Part shown: one piece after another, positions 2,434 to 47,712 of the stretch
How the letters are laid out: each line of letters begins with the position of its first letter
Position numbering within the stretch: position 1 is the first letter of the stretch
Translations under genes and position numbers: made by a program
Source of the DNA: Microcoleus sp. FACHB-1515
Lineage (GTDB): Bacteria > Cyanobacteriota > Cyanobacteriia > Elainellales > Elainellaceae
Direction of reading: 5' to 3'
DNA: 64,000 nt
NCBI RefSeq assembly: GCF_014696105.1
Contig: NZ_JACJPO010000064.1
Span: forward strand, 1-64,000
The notes under the pieces: generated by a model
Databases searched by the model: none
What the model was told of the DNA's origin: nothing
Seen by the model: the letters and a program-made list of their open reading frames with translations, nothing else

Positions 2434-3483
2434 TTACACCAAATGAATCAGCGCTTCGACTAACAGGCGATTCTGTTCTTCTGTGCCGATCGTAATTCGC
2501 AATTTATCATCCAGGCCGGGCTGCTTGAAGTAGCGAACCAAAATGCCGCGCTCTTTCAGGGCGAGATAAAGCGCTTCAGCGTTGTTTTGCGGCGGCTGCG
2601 CCAAGAGAAAATTTGCCTGTGAATTCCAAACGCGAAAGCTGAGATTTTTCAGATCAATCAGCAGTTGCGATCGCGCCTCCTTCACCTTCTGAGCGCAAGC
2701 ATTTTTGTAAGCTTGATCGCGCATGGCCGCCGCGCCGACATGACAGGCGATCGCATCGATGTTGTAGCTGTCCTTCACCTTAAACAGTCCCGCTAACAGC
2801 TTTGGCTGAGCAATTCCAAAGCCGAGCCGCAATCCGGCGAGCGAGTAGCCTTTTGACAAGGTGCGAATGATGATCACATGCTCGAATTCCTCCACCAGCG
2901 GCAACGCCGTCTCGTCGGCAAAATCCACGTAGGCTTCATCGATCGCCAACACGCCCGTCAACCCCGCCGCCAATTGTCGCAGTTCAGCTAGCGGCACGGC
3001 ATGACCAGAGGGACTGTTCGGCGTGGCGATGCAGGTGAGAGCAGCATTTTCTTGAAGCAAAGCGGCGGTCGGCAAGCGAAAATCCGCGCTGTAGGGAATT
3101 TCGATTACCTTTGCAGGCTGCATTTCGCTCAACGTCCGATACAGCACATAGGTCGGCATCGGATAGGCAACTTTGCGATCGCCCTCGACACAAGCCCGCA
3201 TCAGCACGTTCAAAAGCTCGTCGCTGCCATTGCCGACAATCACCCAGTCACGCGGCACGCCGATCGCTTCGCTGACCGCCTGCCGAAATTCGTTTGCATA
3301 CGGGTCAGGATAGCGCCGCAGCCATTCGCTATCAAGATTGCGGAGAACGGCGATCGCGCCCGGTGCAGGCGGATAGGGATTTTCATTCGTGTTGAGCTTG
3401 ATGATTGGCGTTCCGGGCTTTGGCTGCTCTCCCGGCGTGTAGCCAGCCATCGTATCGATATTGGGACGGAAAAAAGAAGTCAT
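2434..3483 (-). CDS. hisC: Histidinol-phosphate aminotransferase
   Basis: 349 residues. This fold-type I PLP aminotransferase converts imidazole-acetol phosphate and glutamate to histidinol phosphate and 2-oxoglutarate in histidine synthesis, in the cytoplasm. Visible landmarks are LNTNENPYPP near residue 30, the GNGSDEL loop near 84, TPNSPSG at 154-160, the DEAYVDF strand at 182-188 and the PLP-binding lysine in RTLSKGYSLAGLR (K211). The ATG at 3483 gives the normal family N-terminus; the upstream extension to 3552 is low quality. The gene is convergent with psaD and not part of a his operon here, which is common in cyanobacteria. Confidence 0.94.
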   Translation of the reverse strand: MTSFFRPNIDTMAGYTPGEQPKPGTPIIKLNTNENPYPPAPGAIAVLRNLDSEWLRRYPDPYANEFRQAVSEAIGVPRDWVIVGNGSDELLNVLMRACVEGDRKVAYPMPTYVLYRTLSEMQPAKVIEIPYSADFRLPTAALLQENAALTCIATPNSPSGHAVPLAELRQLAAGLTGVLAIDEAYVDFADETALPLVEEFEHVIIIRTLSKGYSLAGLRLGFGIAQPKLLAGLFKVKDSYNIDAIACHVGAAAMRDQAYKNACAQKVKEARSQLLIDLKNLSFRVWNSQANFLLAQPPQNNAEALYLALKERGILVRYFKQPGLDDKLRITIGTEEQNRLLVEALIHLV

Positions 3484-3545
3484 GACGGATGAATCAAGCA
3501 AGAGTCGATCGTAGTACGGAATTGCAGCGGCGATCGCACTCAGCC

Positions 3546-3588: not shown

Positions 3589-3620
3589 TAAAAGATTCGG
3601 CCTATTTAGCCTCAGCAGCG

Positions 3621-3645
3621 TATTATGCGGAAGAGTTCGGCTTAA
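3621..3645. repeat. Palindromic TATGCGGAA...TTCGGCTTAAT element
   Basis: This 23-nt motif at 3623-3645 matches 19 of 23 positions of the one at 23481-23503. Both lie about 125-130 bp upstream of an AT-rich lone membrane-protein gene. Its role is unknown; it may be a fragment of a small dispersed repeat. Confidence 0.45.
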
Positions 3646-3772
3646 TCACCCGCTGCGGAATCTTAGGCGGAAACCTTCTGCCCAGTAATCATTAGGCTTC
3701 TTGAGTAATCTGCCAAGGCAGTATATCCTAATGCCTATTTAAGTTGTGGCAACGCCCTTGTGGAGGAGTGAG

Positions 3773-4222
3773 ATGCGAGGTCAGATCTGGTACATTGCTC
3801 TTCTAATTGGACTGATGTGCATTGTTCGGTTTAGTCTCAGTGCTGTTGGCTATGTTGCCCCATATTCGTTGATGCAGCAGCTTAGCATTCCTGTAAGTTC
3901 AAATGTTCAAATGCCCTACATTGTTCGTGTTTGGGCGATTAGAGACACTGTGCTTGCTGTGCTTGTTGCTTCTGCAAACAGAAGTACTGTGAAAACACTT
4001 TTGTTTGCCTGTATCGCCATTGATGTGACTGATATCATATCTGCACATCTGAGTGGTGTAGCAGGGCTATTTAATGAAGTCGAAACCTGGTCGCTCAAGC
4101 TTACTGCCATTGCCGCGCTTGTCCCCGAATCCATAGCATCAGTTTTGCTCACTGTTCGTAAACCCCAAGAACGAATTGATCTTGAGAAGAATCAAGGCAA
4201 AAGCTCAGAAACCATTGTGTAG
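3773..4222 (+). CDS. Small membrane protein, probable integron-type cassette gene
   Basis: 149 residues, unrecognised. It has about four hydrophobic segments: residues 5-26, one near 55-68, one near 75-90, and one near 112-130. A charged tail (KPQERIDLEKNQGK) follows. The ATG at 3773 is chosen over the frame's first ATG at 3746 because GGAGG lies 7 nt upstream of it. There is no HIP1 octamer and the base composition is more AT-rich than the neighbours, suggesting transfer. The stop codon is only 4 bp before an attC-like site, which is the layout of an integron gene cassette. No function is assigned. Confidence 0.6.
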   Translation: MRGQIWYIALLIGLMCIVRFSLSAVGYVAPYSLMQQLSIPVSSNVQMPYIVRVWAIRDTVLAVLVASANRSTVKTLLFACIAIDVTDIISAHLSGVAGLFNEVETWSLKLTAIAALVPESIASVLLTVRKPQERIDLEKNQGKSSETIV

Positions 4223-4226
4223 CAAA

Positions 4227-4311
4227 GCCTAACAACCCCGCTGCACTGGAACGTATCAATATTTCTGGTTGAGTTGCAGTAATCTGCGTCCGGTGAGCGC
4301 GACCGTTGAGC
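4227..4311 (+). other. attC-like integron recombination site
   Basis: 85 bp. It starts with GCCTAAC (fits RYYYAAC, R'') and ends with GTTGAGC (fits GTTRRRY, R'). Just inside are two 5-nt non-complementary spacers, AACCC and CGACC. Next are two L arms, CGCTGCACTGGA and TCCGGTGAGCG, which pair over 11 positions with one extrahelical G and one G-T wobble. The 38-nt middle can form a further small hairpin. This order of R'', spacer, L'', variable part, L', spacer, R' is that of integron attC sites, and the length is in range. No integron integrase is in the window. Confidence 0.65.
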
Positions 4312-4336
4312 GGCCTGAGCTATTGGTGAGGACGTA

Positions 4337-4449: not shown

Positions 4450-5859
4450 TTACTCACTCGCTGCTTCTACAGGAGCGGTAGGTTCTGGAATGGGATTCGT
4501 GGATGAACCAAAGGCGACCCGCAGAAAAGGCGGAGCCAGAAAAGTTGTCAGAATCACCATGATGATGATCGACACTTCCAGCGGCTTATCCAGAATGCCG
4601 CTTGCTGAGCCGATGCCAGCAAACACTAGACCCACCTCACCACGCGGGATCATCCCCACCCCGATCGCGAGGCGATTGATTCCGGGTAGTCCAAACGCTG
4701 CCCAGCCCGTCACTAGTTTGCCAGCGATCGCCACCCCTACTAAAAAGACAGCGATCAATAGTCCCGCCCGATTCTCCGGTACGGTCGGGTTCAAAACACC
4801 TAAGTCAGCCCGTGCTCCTACCGTCACAAAAAAGATGGGTACTAGTAGATCGGCGATCGGTTTGATGAGTTCATCTAGCTCGTTCCGAGCATCGGTTTCA
4901 TCGAGTACCAAACCCGCTGCAAAAGCACCCAAAATTGCTTCGAGATGAATCGCGTTGCCCAAAAATGCCATGAAGAAAGCAAAGATGAAGGCGGGCATGA
5001 CGACGTTGCCGCGAGTTTTGAGTTGATCGACGATCGCCACAAAACTTTTGTTAAAGATACCGCCCAGCAAAATCGCTCCCAGCAAAAATGCCGTCGCGCT
5101 GACAATTAAGTAGATGACATTGGCAACATCGATTTCCCCGGTTTTGGCTAAACTGGCGACGACAGCCAGGACAATAATGCCCAAGACATCATCAATCACC
5201 GCCGCGCCAACAATGATTTGCCCTTCTTTGGATTTGAGTTGCCCTAACTCTGACAGCACTTTCGAGGTAATGCCGATACTGGTTGCCGTTAGCGCCGCTC
5301 CTGCAAAAATTGCTGGAATGGCAGCGACATGAAAGAGCATCATTAACCCTGCCGTGCCCGCCGCAAACGGGGCGGCAACTCCGACACAGGCAACAACTGT
5401 AGCTTGAATTCCCACTTCCTTCAGTTGCCGCAGATCAGATTCCAGTCCAATCTCAAACAGCAGAATAATTACGCCGATTTCAGCTAGAACCGAAATTACT
5501 TCACTTTGCGACTCAAAGATTCGGGTCAGCGCATCCGGTGCCAGTTGGTTCAATCCTTGCAGTGCCCCCATAATCACCGAGTCAGAGGCAGACAGCCCCC
5601 CTTCGGGAAAGATCACCAGGTGCAGCGCCGAAACGCCGACAATCACACCCGCGACCAGTTCCCCCAGGACAGGCGGAAATTCCAATCGCCTCGCGACTTC
5701 TGCGCCGAACTTGCTCGCCAGATAAATCACCACCAGCGTCAGCAAGACGCCAGACAGAATAATCGGTGAATCCTCAGCAACAACGGTTGCCAGAAATGGA
5801 ATCGGAGCGCTGACGGCTATCCCCTCACTGAAATGAGGCAAAATGTTGGACAAAATCAT
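4450..5859 (-). CDS. CPA2-family cation:proton antiporter
   Basis: 469 residues with about 12-13 hydrophobic helices. Landmarks are the ILLFEIGLESD segment at 132-142 and the paired aspartates in VIDDVLG (D223-D224). The aspartate pair is typical of electrogenic Na+/H+ exchangers such as NapA and cyanobacterial NhaS3. The protein would exchange Na+ (or K+) for protons across the plasma or thylakoid membrane. It lies downstream of sbtA-sbtB on the same strand, separated by a terminator and about 200 bp, so it probably has its own promoter. Functionally it fits: SbtA imports bicarbonate with Na+, and an antiporter would return the sodium. No carboxy-terminal TrkA domain is present. The start at 5859 has no obvious ribosome-binding site, so the N-terminus is uncertain. 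Confidence 0.85.
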   Translation of the reverse strand: MILSNILPHFSEGIAVSAPIPFLATVVAEDSPIILSGVLLTLVVIYLASKFGAEVARRLEFPPVLGELVAGVIVGVSALHLVIFPEGGLSASDSVIMGALQGLNQLAPDALTRIFESQSEVISVLAEIGVIILLFEIGLESDLRQLKEVGIQATVVACVGVAAPFAAGTAGLMMLFHVAAIPAIFAGAALTATSIGITSKVLSELGQLKSKEGQIIVGAAVIDDVLGIIVLAVVASLAKTGEIDVANVIYLIVSATAFLLGAILLGGIFNKSFVAIVDQLKTRGNVVMPAFIFAFFMAFLGNAIHLEAILGAFAAGLVLDETDARNELDELIKPIADLLVPIFFVTVGARADLGVLNPTVPENRAGLLIAVFLVGVAIAGKLVTGWAAFGLPGINRLAIGVGMIPRGEVGLVFAGIGSASGILDKPLEVSIIIMVILTTFLAPPFLRVAFGSSTNPIPEPTAPVEAASE

Positions 5860-6015
5860 GATAAATCGATGAAGATTGAGGGTTTGGGGGAGACGGAATG
5901 CGGAGTTGTGAAGGAATCGATCGACGGTGATGTTTTAGATGCGGTTGCCTCGATATAGTCAGCTTCTCCGCTTGGGCATCATCTCGATCGACTCACGGTT
6001 TGAGTAATGGCCATC

Positions 6016-6045
6016 AAAAAGCCGGGGTTACGACTCCGGCTTTTT
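6016..6045. terminator. Terminator after sbtB
   Basis: AAAAAGCCGG ... CCGGCTTTTT forms a symmetric hairpin with a T-tract in both directions. It begins about 20 bp beyond the sbtB stop and so closes the sbtA-sbtB unit. Confidence 0.85.
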
Positions 6046-6064
6046 GGATCTGCGTCGTCTCGAT

Positions 6065-6424
<360 letters not shown>

Positions 6425-6475: not shown

Positions 6476-7684
6476 TTAGAGTCCGCCGATCGCCTGGGCT
6501 AGCCCGACGAAGAACGGGATGCACAAGCCGATCGCAATGGGTGTACCGATCGCTGTGGACGCGCCGATGTACGCGGAGGGATTGGCCGAGGGAATCCCGG
6601 CTCGCAGCGTGGGCGGACCTGAGATGTCTGAACTGGAGGCGGCGATGACGGCCAAGATCACGACGCCGCCCATGCTGAATCCTGTCGCGTAGTGGGCAAT
6701 CATGCCGAGACCGAAGGCGATCAGACCATGCACAAACGGTGCCACCACGCTATACACGACGTACCACTGAGCCACCTTACGCAATTCACCAATTCTTGAC
6801 CAAGCTTCCATGCCCATGACCAGCATCAAGATCGAAAGCAGACCCCGAAAGAGGGGATCGTAGAAGTTTTCGTAGACACTTTCGGGTCGGGCGAACAGAC
6901 CAATGGCAACACCAAGCAACATGGCTGACAGGGCAGGTCCCTGGAGGCTTTCCTGCACGATCGGCCAGATCTTGACCCGATTATCCACAGGCTCCTTCTT
7001 CTTGCTGCGATACTCTTGTCGCGTGCTGGGATAATCACCTGCGGAACCGGGATGATCACCTGTGGTGCTGAAAGAGGTGCCTGCGGGGAGAGGTGCGCCT
7101 GCGGTGCTGAGAGACGCAGTTGCGGGACTGGTATATTCTTCTGCGGGACTGGGATACTCCTGCTTGCTGATATACTCGCCTGCTGCCTTACGCTTCTGCT
7201 TGTTGTTGAGATAAATGTTGGCTACCACAATCGCAGTCACGAGTGCTGGGATATCCATAAAGGGATAGAGTGCGCCAGCCCATGCCTCGTATCCGATGTT
7301 TTGCTCATCCAGTAGCGTCAGGGCGGCGGCCATCGTAGAGCCACTCACGGCACCAAACAATCCCCCGGTCGCGATCGCATCTACAGTCTTGACCTTCGGC
7401 AGTTTCGCCAACGTGAAGCGGGCGATGAAGACAACCAGAATTCCGACTGTGATCGAAAAAGCTGCGGGTAAAATCATTTCCGCTAGGTTGGAATTGCGAA
7501 TCTCAATCCCACCACTCAGACCAATTCTGGCGAGCAGCATGAAGACAATGATCTGACAAATTGCCTCTGGGATTACCAATTGGCTACCGAAAGCGGCAAT
7601 GACCATACCAGCAATCAAAAAGCTGAGTGTTGGCGACTGCAACTGTTTGATGAAGTCCATTACAAAAAAGGACAAAAAATCCAC
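6476..7684 (-). CDS. sbtA: Sodium-dependent bicarbonate transporter SbtA
   Basis: 402 residues from a GTG start at 7684 with AAGGAGG 6-7 nt upstream; a Met eight codons in is an alternative. SbtA is the high-affinity Na+/HCO3- symporter of the CO2-concentrating mechanism, in the plasma membrane. The two inverted five-helix halves are visible, with GLFGAVSGSTMAAALTLL in the first half and AASSSDISGPPTLRAG in the second. The central cytoplasmic loop is unusual: it contains about nine copies of a 7-residue unit (EYxSxxx and variants, coded around 7005-7190), making the protein about 30 residues longer than common SbtA. sbtB follows as the second gene. Expression is likely induced by low inorganic carbon. 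Confidence 0.95.
   Translation of the reverse strand: MDFLSFFVMDFIKQLQSPTLSFLIAGMVIAAFGSQLVIPEAICQIIVFMLLARIGLSGGIEIRNSNLAEMILPAAFSITVGILVVFIARFTLAKLPKVKTVDAIATGGLFGAVSGSTMAAALTLLDEQNIGYEAWAGALYPFMDIPALVTAIVVANIYLNNKQKRKAAGEYISKQEYPSPAEEYTSPATASLSTAGAPLPAGTSFSTTGDHPGSAGDYPSTRQEYRSKKKEPVDNRVKIWPIVQESLQGPALSAMLLGVAIGLFARPESVYENFYDPLFRGLLSILMLVMGMEAWSRIGELRKVAQWYVVYSVVAPFVHGLIAFGLGMIAHYATGFSMGGVVILAVIAASSSDISGPPTLRAGIPSANPSAYIGASTAIGTPIAIGLCIPFFVGLAQAIGGL
7005..7190 (-). repeat. 21-bp-period degenerate tandem repeat inside sbtA
   Basis: About nine 21-bp units encode EYISKQ, EYPSPAE, EYTSPAT, ASLSTAG, TSFSTTG, DHPGSAG, DYPSTRQ and EYRSKKK type heptads in the central loop of SbtA. The units are degenerate but the in-frame period is clear, and the segment stays open. 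Confidence 0.75.
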
Positions 7685-8205
7685 GAATACCTCCTTGTGC
7701 CTCCTCGGATGAGGAGTATTGCAATACAATGAACGGCAGATCAAACTAACTAGAAGCGACCCATTTCATAGAAAGAATCGCTATAGATAAAATCGGCTGG
7801 GGAATGGAATCTGGCGTCTGCGATCGCGCTCAAAGAAGTCTCAACAACAAATTGCCGAGAATGATTGCTGAGCGACTTCAAGCCCCGAAAAACTAGATCG
7901 TGATAGTTAAATTATTTGGATGTTTTTAACTGTACGTTACTCCGGGTACTAATACTTATTAAGTAATCAAAAAAGATTTTCTTGTTTGCATAGAAAGATT
8001 TCTATGATTTTTAGATCACTGGACGTGAAGCCAGCGATCGCGAGCAGCAGCCCAACAGGTCGTTGCAGCGGCAACATTAAGGTTAAGGTTACTGTCAGGA
8101 ATCAGTAAGTCGCTAGCCGCCGCACGATCTCGACGTTAGCTTGAAGGTCAAAGCGTAAGAACGGTGAAAGATTTATGTGGTCGATCGCCCTTCCACTCAA
8201 ATCGC
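7685..8205. promoter_or_regulatory. sbtA upstream region with two palindromes
   Basis: This 520-bp region has no gene. It holds TACTTA-T-TAAGTA (7953-7965) and CATAGAAA-GA-TTTCTATG (7989-8006), plus several TTA...TAA pairs of the kind bound by LysR-type regulators such as CmpR and CcmR/NdhR in cyanobacteria. The promoter of sbtA must lie here. Assignment to a given regulator is only inferred. Confidence 0.4.
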
Positions 8206-8961
8206 TCACAACCCAACTTCCTGCACTTCATTCCAGCTTTGCACCGAAGCGTCTTCACGCTGACAGCGGCGAACGAAGCTACAGCCGTGACAGGCAGAAT
8301 GGGCAGTAGTTTGGGGAAACGGATGGCCTTGGGCGTAGGTTTGCAGCCAGGTTGCCAATCGATCGAGCAGCCCAGCTAATGCTTGCAAATCGCGATCGCG
8401 CTGAGCAACGCTATAGCGAAAGGTCAAGCTTTGCGGTTCGCTCGTTTCTTCGGGCTGCACAAACCAATAGGTCATCGCGACTTGTTCGGGTGCGTAGTGC
8501 GTCGTCATTGTGAGAACGAGCGGATAGAGGCGCGTTTGCCAATTTTCGGCAAGCTGGTTCGATCGCACCGGACGCCCGTAGGTTTTCCAGTCGAAAATTT
8601 GCGCTTCGTCGCCCATCAGCAGCAGATCATAGATAACCGTGAATAAATACCCTTGAAATTCCCAGGTGCGGCGATATTCGCTGTGAGAATAGACATCGGT
8701 GGTGAAGACGGCGGGGGCGGCACTGACGAGCGATCGCACACAGGATTGCAATTGCGCGACTTCCGGATCGATCGCGTCCAGCGTCGTGACGGGCAGACCG
8801 ATCGCGTACTGCTGCACCATGCGGTGAAACTTTGTGCCCCAACCGAGTCGCGCCTGCTGCTCAGCCGTCAGCGGTGATCCCAACTGCTCTAGGAAGCTGT
8901 GCTGGAAGCGGCGGGGACAGGCTTCAATCAGATTGAGCTGGGTTTGCGACAGTCGCATCAT
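8206..8961 (-). CDS. PD-(D/E)XK nuclease-family protein, RecB/AddB C-terminal type
   Basis: 251 residues. The nuclease core is seen in the GWGTKFHRMVQQ helix (GxxxH), the YDLLLMGDEAQIFDWKT stretch with D and DWK, and a following QTRLYPL helix. One cysteine in EACPRRFQ near the N-terminus and three in CHGCSFVRRC at the C-terminus have the spacing of the 4Fe-4S cluster that staples Cas4/AddB-type nucleases. It probably acts on DNA ends during repair, alone or with an unlinked helicase. An ATG pair at 8961/8958 with GAGG upstream is preferred to the GTG at 8976. It lies 22 bp downstream of the fibrillin gene on the same strand, so the two may be co-transcribed. Confidence 0.82.
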   Translation of the reverse strand: MMRLSQTQLNLIEACPRRFQHSFLEQLGSPLTAEQQARLGWGTKFHRMVQQYAIGLPVTTLDAIDPEVAQLQSCVRSLVSAAPAVFTTDVYSHSEYRRTWEFQGYLFTVIYDLLLMGDEAQIFDWKTYGRPVRSNQLAENWQTRLYPLVLTMTTHYAPEQVAMTYWFVQPEETSEPQSLTFRYSVAQRDRDLQALAGLLDRLATWLQTYAQGHPFPQTTAHSACHGCSFVRRCQREDASVQSWNEVQEVGL

Positions 8962-23429: not shown

Positions 23430-23517
23430 TTCCGGGATGTTACATGGAAACTTTCTGCATATTCACCTATTCCGGGACGCTATGCGGAAATTTTCGGCAT
23501 AATGAATTGTTATGCCG
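23430..23517. repeat. Imperfect 40-bp tandem repeat ending in a TTATGCCG hairpin
   Basis: TTCCGGGATGTTACATGGAA... at 23430 recurs 40 bp later as TTCCGGGACGCTATGCGGAA... . The second copy ends in a perfect hairpin CGGCATAA-TGAATTG-TTATGCCG (23495-23517). A TATGCGGAA...TTCGGC.TAAT core of the second copy is also found at 3623-3645. An inverted copy of TTATGCCGC is at 24316-24324, on the far side of the next gene. Confidence 0.6.
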
Positions 23518-23628
23518 CAGGGCGATCGGGAGAAACAGTACTCGAAGTTTATCTGTTGATAACCAAAGTTGAGTGCTTCGAGGCTGTCTGTGAGATGATG
23601 CTCTCAGTTTGCTGGTGGAGTGTCACAA

Positions 23629-24222
23629 ATGGATGCAGAACCTAGCCCAAGATTAGAATACCTTTACAAAGAGTATGCAAGACTGAGTGATAAAGCAGAA
23701 GAAGTGATAAAAAGTGCATATGATGATTTCAAGTTACTTGGAGTAGTAGGAGCAGTCATCATCATTTGGAAACCAGTTTCTGAAGTCGTCTTGCCCGCAA
23801 TTCCAAAGTTTGATTCCACTCTTTTCCTACTTTTAGGCTTCTTAAGCTTGTTAGCAGTTCTAGGACTGATTTTATTCTCAAATTTGATTAAGCAGTCTTA
23901 TGCATGGTACTTTGTTCGCAACTTACAAGCTTATGAGATAGAGATCAAAAAGGAGTTAGGTGAAGGAGAAAATTCACAAGTTTTTAGTTTCAATATTGGC
24001 AAAGAAGAAGCAAAATTTGTTACAGCATCTTATCGTTTAGCATTCAAAGCAACGCTACTGTCAGGGTTCTCTGTTGTGACTTTGTTACCATTTGTGATTT
24101 TGTGTTACTCAAATATTTTTTATGCAATACTCTATGCATTAATATCTTTTCTTGGTCTCACGATATATCTACAAATTTTTAGAAGAATGATGAAACAATA
24201 TTTCAACAATAAACTTTTATAA
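23629..24222 (+). CDS. AT-rich lone gene, hypothetical membrane protein
   Basis: 197 residues, not recognised. The N-terminus is helical and charged (residues 1-35). There are two hydrophobic segments near 36-55 and 65-90 and two more near 140-185, with a soluble middle holding IEIKKELGEGENSQVF. The C-terminus is basic. The ATG at 23629 follows GGTGGAG. Codons are clearly more AT-rich than the neighbours and no HIP1 site lies inside, suggesting acquisition. TTATGCCGC at 23510 and its inverted copy at 24316 bracket the gene. Membrane proteins with this layout are sometimes defence effectors, but there is no motif to support that here. Confidence 0.6.
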   Translation: MDAEPSPRLEYLYKEYARLSDKAEEVIKSAYDDFKLLGVVGAVIIIWKPVSEVVLPAIPKFDSTLFLLLGFLSLLAVLGLILFSNLIKQSYAWYFVRNLQAYEIEIKKELGEGENSQVFSFNIGKEEAKFVTASYRLAFKATLLSGFSVVTLLPFVILCYSNIFYAILYALISFLGLTIYLQIFRRMMKQYFNNKLL

Positions 24223-24528
24223 GTTGAGTTCAAGCAGTACTGTGAAAAACTTGGAATTGGTAGATATGGAAAAAAGAACATTGCTTGAGCAGTTTAGCAA
24301 CACAAGTTCAGCAAAGCGGCATAAGATAAACCCGGTCGGAGCGGACTGTTGAAAGCTGTTGGTGAGGATGCAAAGAGCAGCGATCGCAACCTCTCCCCCT
24401 CAAACAAATCAGCTTCCGATCAGCACAAATCACCAGTGAATCGATCGTTTCTGGCGCGGTGAATTTCTAAGTTGGTCGCGGTGGCGGCTAGGAGATTTGA
24501 TCGCAAGGTGCGATCGAATCGCTCTGCT
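24223..24528. other. Gap with GCGGCATAA and a half-site resembling the attC right end
   Basis: 305 bp without a gene. GCGGCATAA (24316-24324) mirrors TTATGCCGC on the other side of the lone gene. Beyond it, GGTCGGAGCGGACTGTTGAA and a GCTGTTGGTGAGGATG stretch resemble the right end of the attC-like site at 4290-4335 (GGTGAGCGCGACCGTTGAGC ... TATTGGTGAGGACG). No left half can be found, so this is at most a degenerate site. Confidence 0.4.
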
Positions 24529-46817: not shown

Positions 46818-47084
46818 CTATTCGATTCGCAAGTAGCGCGTCAGCACGCTAATCACATCCCCCGGAGCGGGCGTAATCAGCAGCGGTTCCCCAACCGCCA
46901 GCGGTCTTGCCCAAGTGGTTGCATCCGCATAGCGCAGTTGTTGCAGATGCAAAATCGTGCGATCGACTGCGATCGGCTGACCGATCAGGACGTGCTTGAC
47001 CACATAGCGCGAATCTTCTGGGAAGCGAAAGGCAGACGGAATTTGCAGCAGCGGAGTGTCGCCGCGCTCGTTGGGTCGCGACAT
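46818..47084 (-). CDS. Small conserved hypothetical protein
   Basis: 88 residues from the ATG at 47084 (or 47099). It has no membrane helix and no cysteine. The middle reads EDSRYVVKHVLIGQPIAVDRTILHLQQL-like and ends PGDVISVLTRYLRIE, which looks like a small beta-rich domain. I do not recognise a family. It converges with the hemL fragment, and in the ancestral arrangement it was probably the neighbour of hemL. It is GC-rich and HIP1-containing, like native genes. Confidence 0.6.
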   Translation of the reverse strand: MSRPNERGDTPLLQIPSAFRFPEDSRYVVKHVLIGQPIAVDRTILHLQQLRYADATTWARPLAVGEPLLITPAPGDVISVLTRYLRIE

Positions 47085-47712
47085 GAAGTCGTTTCTCATC
47101 TGGGTTTTCCTTTTGTAAGCGGGCAGGAAAACCCAAAAACTCAGCCGACCCCAATGTCAAGACAAGACAATCAGGGCGGCTGGGAGAGTAAAATCTCCGT
47201 AGCCCGCTCGGACTGGCGTGATCAGTTTGACGGGTTAGCGATCCGTTGTTGCTGGACACAACTTCGGGTCGCGTCGGCTCAGCTTTTGGGCACAACGCTG
47301 GGAGCAGCGTTAAGGCAAAAAGTAGCGGAAGGATTTTGCCCTGTCAAGTAATTTTCTTCTGGAAATTGAAGCGCGATCGCAAAATTGCGGCTTTCGCACG
47401 TTTCCGGGAATCGATCGTTTCAAAACTTTGTAGCGAAGATGACATTTTCGGCGAACTGCTGCTGCAAAGTGCGGTTGTGGAACTTGCCGATTTTCGATCG
47501 CAATTTCTATCCGTATTGCTTCCATAAGGTTTATACCTCCAGATGGATAACAGCATCCAACGCTGTAGAGCTACCATCAAAAAGATGCTGAGCAAATTTA
47601 AGTCATCATTCCCATAGAAATTTCATTCAAAAATTAGGCTAAGTTCTGCTGTTGACTTGGCGATCGCTCATCGTTTCTCAAAGCAGCTTTACCCGTTAAT
47701 CAGGAGATTTTA
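47085..47712. other. Long gap upstream of the ADH gene
   Basis: 628 bp with no convincing gene; several open frames here lack start signals and family features. A small hairpin AACGCT-GGGAGC-AGCGTT lies near 47296. The promoter of the ADH-crtO pair should lie at the right end. Confidence 0.4.

Follow-up and report, generated by a model that had tools for sequence, protein, structure and literature searches.

How did a gene followed at once by an integron recombination site come to lie between hisC and an antiporter gene, with no integrase beside it? We addressed this question in the window, the whole stretch of 64,000 nucleotides analysed here, which belongs to contig C61 of the Microcoleus sp. 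FACHB-1515 genome (5.79 Mb in 96 contigs). The left neighbour is hisC (2434..3492, minus strand; TIGR01141, 312.8 bits, over the cut-off), and the right neighbour is a CPA2-type Na+/H+ antiporter gene (4450..5859, minus strand; PF00999, E 9.3e-69). The analysis showed that the locus between them is composed of an attI and one 614-bp cassette, without intI. We give a probability of roughly 0.68 to the reading that it is the minimal integrase-less remnant of a chromosomal integron, with attI (3596-3691) and cassette (3692-4305) left behind after intI was lost in place.

The cassette gene (3773..4222, plus strand; ORF listing and Pfam) encodes a 149-aa product, predicted to be a small membrane protein; its resemblance to DUF4267 is weak and under the cut-off (PF14087, E 0.0024). 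The Shine-Dalgarno-like motif GGAGGAG stands directly upstream of the ORF, and the gene may be expressed. Its GC content is 0.444, versus 0.527 for the window. An attC site follows the pattern RYYYAAC...GTTRRRY, with crossover between G and TT and with extrahelical bases. After a gap of 4 bp from the ORF stop, an attC of 85 bp (4227..4311, plus strand) begins with R'' GCCTAAC (4227-4233), the spacer AACCC and L'' CGCTGCACTGGA, and closes with L' TCCGGTGAGCG, the spacer CGACC and R' GTTGAGC (4305-4311). Because L' is one base shorter than L'', the site has one extrahelical G. Gene, gap and attC layout are as given in a preliminary description of this DNA, to which we add the left end of the cassette at 3692, on the attI boundary. 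The 614-bp cassette (3692..4305, plus strand) thus runs from TTAGGC to the G of R', with its right edge set by the attC model R1 and its left edge by the attI model R2. Its 5' bases TTAGGC (TTRRRY) are exactly complementary to the GCCTAA with which R'' GCCTAAC opens.

We constructed R1 as a covariance model from 16 attC close to intI genes of other genera in the family, with no sequence from the own genus. Ad hoc attC scans, which yield many false sites at loose settings, served as a seed source only, and the training junctions of both models were picked by eye. The hand-set structure of R1 had 82.3% paired cells, versus 68.7% when shuffled, and a covariation of 0.405 versus 0.162. The results showed that the held-out window attC scored 48.7 bits, with E 1.7e-8 over the 5.79-Mb genome and E 3.1e-10 over 101 kb, and ranked ninth among 24 matches in its own genome (150 of 1096 first-look candidates scored). 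With the ad hoc stem scan, 4227-4311 was top in the window at 12.9 (runner-up 10.4), and with a looser scan the site at 8050-8141 stood above it (14.5 vs 13.8). The single-stranded folding energy of the window attC was ordinary against shuffles (z -0.34 for the bottom strand and -0.67 for the top strand); one strong family attC gave z -3.27 in the same analysis.

At E<=0.01, R1 detected attC in all 36 family genomes, from 3 to at least 124 each (at least 124 in G027). At E<=1e-5, 84 of the 116 genomes in a class-wide cyanobacterial sample matched and 32 did not, six listed f2 genomes among them; R1 therefore does not match everything. The held-out model scores reject a chance stem as the source of 4227-4311, and the element at 3692-4305 is a real integron gene cassette, one gene with attC directly downstream. 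The preliminary description had called it a cassette on the order of gene and site and had proposed a covariance model as the check; run on the region and the genome, the model scored the site well above background. That description had also named what would speak against a cassette, namely no score above background, or the same gene and site fixed in all relatives with no arrays anywhere. We obtained neither: the model scores, the occupant of the place varies among relatives, and attC occur throughout the family. Its statement that the window has no second complete attC needs qualification, since R1 also gave 25.4 bits to a weaker attC-like site at 8050-8141 (genome-wide E 0.023, and E 0.00041 over 101 kb), and the window has a further, degenerate attC-like sequence at about 24319-24395.

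Relatives of the cassette gene (E<=0.001) were found in 8 of 60 genomes searched, the own genome counted. G001, of the same genus, has two well-conserved copies (78% and about 65% identity), both followed by an attC (28.6 and 38.0 bits) at places other than that in the window. The copy on its contig C275 gave two overlapping matches in different frames and looks frameshifted. It adjoins the same transporter gene as the intI remnant on contig C53 of our genome, together with a divergent HxlR-like regulator ORF, and therefore occupies the corresponding integron locus. Among the loci examined, no attC was detected at the copies in other genera (L014, L015 and L016) or at the homologues in G005, G032 and G037; the G016 homologue has an attC match of 30.1 bits about 0.9 kb off, on the opposite strand.

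At the left edge of the cassette, positions 3596-3691 form a tandem 37-bp inverted-repeat element that ends exactly at the cassette start TTAGGC. It consists of a first attI-type inverted unit of 37 bp (3596..3632, plus strand; TTCGGCC...TATGCGGAA), a second of 37 bp (3636..3672, plus strand; TTCGGCTTAAT...TTAGGCGGAA) and a terminal half-unit, TTCTGCCCAGTAATCA (3676..3691, plus strand), and the cassette is joined after 3691. The units hold the GTT cores TATTATGC and ATGTTATGC. We built R2 from 19 attI regions beside complete or partial intI in other genera, leaving out the own genus; one of the 19 is another attI of G010, a genome used below. R2 matched 3633-3697, covering unit 2 and the half-unit, with 43.2 bits (E 4.3e-6 genome-wide), and the match ends on TTAGGC. 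Unit 1 lies left of this match and has the layout of the tandem units beside intI in other genera. At E<=1e-3, R2 matched 34 of 36 family genomes, training genomes among the 34, and found no attI in G008 and G011. Support for pairing is weaker in the attI unit than in attC: 78.0% of the R2 cells were paired versus 73.8% in shuffled alignments. The same architecture adjoins intI genes in other genera (e.g. G014, G024, G026, G027 and G032), and several cassettes of the own genome are preceded by tandem 37-38-bp inverted units, then a 16-18-bp half-unit, then TTRRRY. By the R2 match, 3596-3691 is an attI-type site related to the sites next to intI, with a putative role in recombination. The half-site in the window reached only 6.7 bits with a position weight matrix (PWM) and has A at the junction base 3691 where the consensus has G, and for both reasons we count it as worn.

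We then compared the same place in relatives. The homology to G010 (85% identity) begins at window position 4305, the G of R', and at that point the preceding bases in G010 are AGAAAACTTTCAGCCTAAGAATAG. The right flank in the window, TTGAGCGGCCTGAGCT (4306..4321, plus strand), is the shared target side, with antiporter 3' DNA next to it. Exactly at the equivalent position, pairing with the worn half-site of the window, G010 carries an attI half-site without a cassette, with a PWM score of 19.3 bits; in the 11-kb stretch, 1 of 21,948 positions was at or above this score, and the next best reached 6.7. The motif GTTGAAC stands at the right flank in both G005 and G010, and GTTGARC is conserved in the own genome (G000), G005 and G010. 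In G005, whose locus pieces are identical to those of Elainella sp. Prado103 (L140), the attC model has a match that ends at this GTTGAAC too; with 16.9 bits (E 0.61 over 816 kb), the match is weak alone. The left flanks differ, with hisC in the window and another gene in G010, and that of G005 is also non-homologous to the window. Proof of the empty site for which the preliminary description suggested looking is therefore limited to its right side together with the half-site motif. The closest comparison would have been G001, of the same genus, but in this genome (82% complete) the antiporter region found no match.

Integron pieces also occur near this antiporter elsewhere. In Elainella saxicola E1 (L150), an attI (7620-7686, 38.4 bits) and a small gene described below (8206-8403) lie 1.2-2.0 kb downstream of the same antiporter (5001-6410), and no IntI was found at this locus at E<=1e-5. 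A methyltransferase-like ORF likewise lies downstream of the antiporter, in the region of 7620-8403. We considered GTTAGGATACCTGAGC as an extra attI half-site at the E. saxicola antiporter and rejected it, as it is absent from the best four PWM sites. On contig C15 of G010 (L250, 1-735), across the antiporter from the cassette-free half-site, we observed a copy of the small gene (535-735) and an attI match of 15.6 bits that is cut off by the end of the stretch.

The window locus is one of many in its genome. R1 found at least 19 attC at E<=0.01 on many contigs (150 of 1096 candidates scored), and R2 found at least 12 attI at E<=1e-3 among 32 matches at E<=10 (150 of 775 candidates scored). Taking the 19 attC together with the site at window 8050-8141 as the twentieth, 9 of the 20 lie within 3.5 kb downstream of a strong attI on the same strand, with 0.07 expected under uniform placement. 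Fifteen of the 20 attC, that of the window among them, have a same-strand ORF whose end falls in the range from 31 nt inside the attC to 60 nt upstream of it (raw counts), and at three further sites the ORF ends 83-196 nt before; no ORF of at least 100 aa precedes the attC at C53:36584 and window 8050. Ten attI loci had a detected attC downstream, and at six of them (C36, C63a, C24, C52, C13 and the window) the cassette opens with six bases exactly complementary to R''; the attI matches of C52 and C13 are weak (E 0.07 and 0.19). C32b is one base off, and C3, C56 and C53 showed no match. As 6-mer complements were sought over 2.6 kb upstream of attC, where chance matches are common, only those at the attI junction were counted. 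The strong attI at C32:672 and C42:119 run into contig ends, and no attC was detected for the C31 attI.

Pfam searches of 17 of the same-strand ORFs before attC matched, among others, HAD hydrolase, SMI1/KNR4, two PIN domains, GNAT acetyltransferase, PvuII endonuclease, glutathione peroxidase, glycosyltransferase, DUF4365, DUF2891 and haem-oxygenase-like families; 5 of the 17 matched no Pfam family at E<=0.001. On contig C32 (L217, 1847-3864), an attI and, about 1.9 kb downstream, an attC enclose two ORFs: a helix-turn-helix regulator-like ORF and then one for a PvuII-type restriction endonuclease, which stops 4 bp short of the attC. The window itself has a second attI at 23450-23515 (47.1 bits). 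Behind it come an AT-rich ORF for a membrane protein (ATG 23629, stop 24222) and the degenerate attC noted above, which starts GCATAAG at 24319. Together (23450-24395) they make another unit without an integrase, 20 kb away from the one at 3596-4311. The integrons of this genome seem to have been broken up into scattered small units.

As to the integrase, none of the 15 own-genome matches to the IntI model at E<=10 lies on C61, in line with the preliminary description, which had seen no integrase in the window. That description also pointed to other parts of the genome as a place to look for intI. There intI is present only in pieces, and no match over the cut-off of TIGR02249 was obtained in the 96 contigs. 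The best match, at C53:36900-37208 (96.4 bits), is truncated to the N-terminal part (profile positions 1-103) and adjoins an attI and an attC. This region (L022, 8585-9209), which lies beside a transporter gene and combines the truncated intI with the attI and a single attC, is a relic integron. Two further candidates were discarded as integron integrases: C45:15565 (54 bits), an open 359-aa frame under the cut-off, is probably another tyrosine recombinase, and C83:3757 (51 bits) contains three stops. Weak matches to the IntI model occurred in 14 of 14 control genomes at E<=10, none over the cut-off, and small scores therefore mean little. Across the family, intI over the NCBIfam cut-off was present in 18 of 36 genomes. 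We also ran tblastn with 11 family IntI on the DNA to the left of 14 attI loci, over at most 2.5 kb each (67 bp for C24), and a remnant at E<1e-5 was detected at one of them, C53.

The DNA left of these attI sites is itself repeated. At C36, C13, C32b and C42 (L249, L245, L246 and L242), 0.6-0.8 kb directly left of attI is common to the four loci (75.7-85.7% identity), and C53 and C63a have 0.6 kb in common (87.3% identity). The common DNA encodes a protein of about 100 aa, on the opposite strand at four loci, with no Pfam or NCBIfam match over the cut-off. Relatives of this small gene (tblastn, E<=1e-3) adjoin intI in G002, G009, G026, G027, G031 and G032 and lie near the intI pieces of G001:C213 and G027:C73. 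In other genera the small gene sits just 3' of intI (e.g. L056, L038, L057 and L049). A profile made from the four own-genome copies found it at 6 of 24 intI loci in the first round and at 15 of 24 after iteration, the iterated E-values including the matches themselves and two loci having less than 300 bp to search. As a control, 80 other cyanobacterial loci (794 kb) gave one match, which is the E. saxicola locus with attI. Judged from this DNA, C36, C13, C32 and C42 are probably copies of one platform without intI. A paralogue of the small gene was observed in the window at 46818-47099 (minus strand; profile E 1.8e-15, 49% to the C53 copy), with no attI match near it.

In the remnant reading, an IntI tyrosine recombinase would have joined a circular cassette to an attI downstream of the antiporter gene, cutting between G and TT and giving the product ...TCA/TTAGGC...cassette...CCG/TTGAGC... 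(slashes mark the joins). The intI gene, which is truncated elsewhere in the genome, would later have been lost from this locus, leaving attI, cassette and attC; with intI gone, the cassette would now be fixed. Several observations count against the reading: there is no sign of intI or the small gene at the window locus, where hisC starts about 100 bp left of attI, the attC folding energy is ordinary, the half-site is worn, and the C31 attI has no detected attC. An intact intI could also lie in a gap between the 96 contigs.

An unlikely alternative is that attI and cassette arrived as one block and that intI was never here, through IntI acting on core sites in tandem attI units or through homologous recombination among platforms. 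The GTT cores inside the attI units would allow this, 13 of the 14 attI loci tested have no intI in their left DNA, and four loci share DNA together with attI; in class 1 and 2 integrons, partial attI are also reported to move with cassettes, on the downstream side of the ORF (excerpt of PMC12901181). However, the common 0.6-0.8 kb holds the intI-associated small gene, which fits copies of a platform minus intI, and the integron pieces at the same antiporter in G010, G005 and E. saxicola fit an old residence. The recurrent integron pieces at the antiporter, and the small gene as a mark of former platforms at other loci, lead us to favour loss in place over block arrival.

We regard as improbable that IntI put a circular cassette at a GTT outside any attI between hisC and the antiporter gene, an attG insertion. 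The locus has no intI, GTTGARC is conserved downstream of the antiporter as a plain GTT target would be, and such insertion has been reported for E. coli by Loot et al. 2024, as cited in an excerpt of PMC12444791. But the held-out R2 recognises the sequence left of the junction as attI-type, which places the locus outside attG insertions, G010 has an attI half-site at the same position, and 9 of the 20 own-genome attC sit behind attI-type elements. The presence of attI leads us to favour loss in place here too, and the secondary-site insertion of a stranded cassette, entertained in the preliminary description, is not supported for this locus. attG insertion may apply to attC with no attI upstream, such as C40, C72, C76 and window 8050. 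Chance resemblance, or an unrelated palindromic repeat beside an ordinary gene, would suit the ordinary folding energy and the worn half-site but is highly improbable, as two independent held-out models (E 1.7e-8 and 4.3e-6) meet exactly at the two ends of one gene, and neither model matches everywhere (32 of 116 cyanobacterial genomes without attC at E<=1e-5, 2 of 36 family genomes without attI at E<=1e-3).

A broader possibility, which we hold only tentatively, is that of a distributed integron, in which a single integrase at most would act in trans on many attI spread over one chromosome, each holding a cassette or a few. G009, a single contig, has one intI match (E<=1e-12) versus six attI (E<1e-8); five of the attI lie away from intI, and four of these five have an attC up to 5 kb downstream on the same strand. 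If this applies, the platform of small gene, intI and attI would be the unit that multiplies, as the small gene recurs beside both intI and orphan attI. If the attI model holds, many cyanobacterial landing sites would be invisible to searches based on attC only or intI only, and integron gene gain would be spread over the chromosome rather than confined to one array. R1 and R2 can be applied to any cyanobacterial genome.

Integrons in cyanobacteria are already in print (excerpts of PMC2426708, PMC8618304 and PMC8352920), and CALIN and SALIN are established terms (excerpts of PMC9024848 and PMC12690207). In the open-licence papers we found no account of the attI architecture, of dispersed cyanobacterial attI-cassette units or of the small gene beside intI, which is weak evidence. 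An excerpt of Ghaly et al. 2021 (PMC8352920) lists Cyanobacteria as one of 11 taxa with an attC model, singletons removed; R1 was built anew and is a separate model from that cyanobacterial attC class. The choice between off-target insertion, intI loss and rearrangement for integrase-less cassettes is presented as an open matter in the excerpt of PMC8618304, where intI loss is one of three listed routes to integrase-less attC. A recognisable attI at the left edge of a cassette makes this question of origin decidable locus by locus.

Compared with known systems, the locus resembles a sedentary chromosomal integron in attC layout, gene-attC order, the upstream attI-type element and G/TT junctions, but such an integron has intI and an array, whereas the window locus has one cassette and no IntI match near its attI, and we do not class it as a complete integron. 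The attG insertions of Loot et al. 2024, also cited in an excerpt of PMC11023631, are alike in being single cassettes away from an active integron; the insertion point in the window, in contrast, is attI-like and not a plain GTT. The Delta-attI-type cassettes of class 1 and 2 integrons (excerpt of PMC12901181) likewise carry part of attI apart from intI, but in those the attI fragment stands downstream of the ORF in place of attC, whereas in the window attI is upstream and attC is present. With CALIN and SALIN the locus shares attC without an integrase nearby and belongs among them (excerpts of PMC9024848, PMC8618304 and PMC12690207). Those classes are defined in these excerpts by attC only, whereas the window locus keeps its attI, which speaks for an origin by intI loss. 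The cassette is thus ordinary in kind, and its state is unusual: attI kept, integrase gone, and a dozen attI in one genome.
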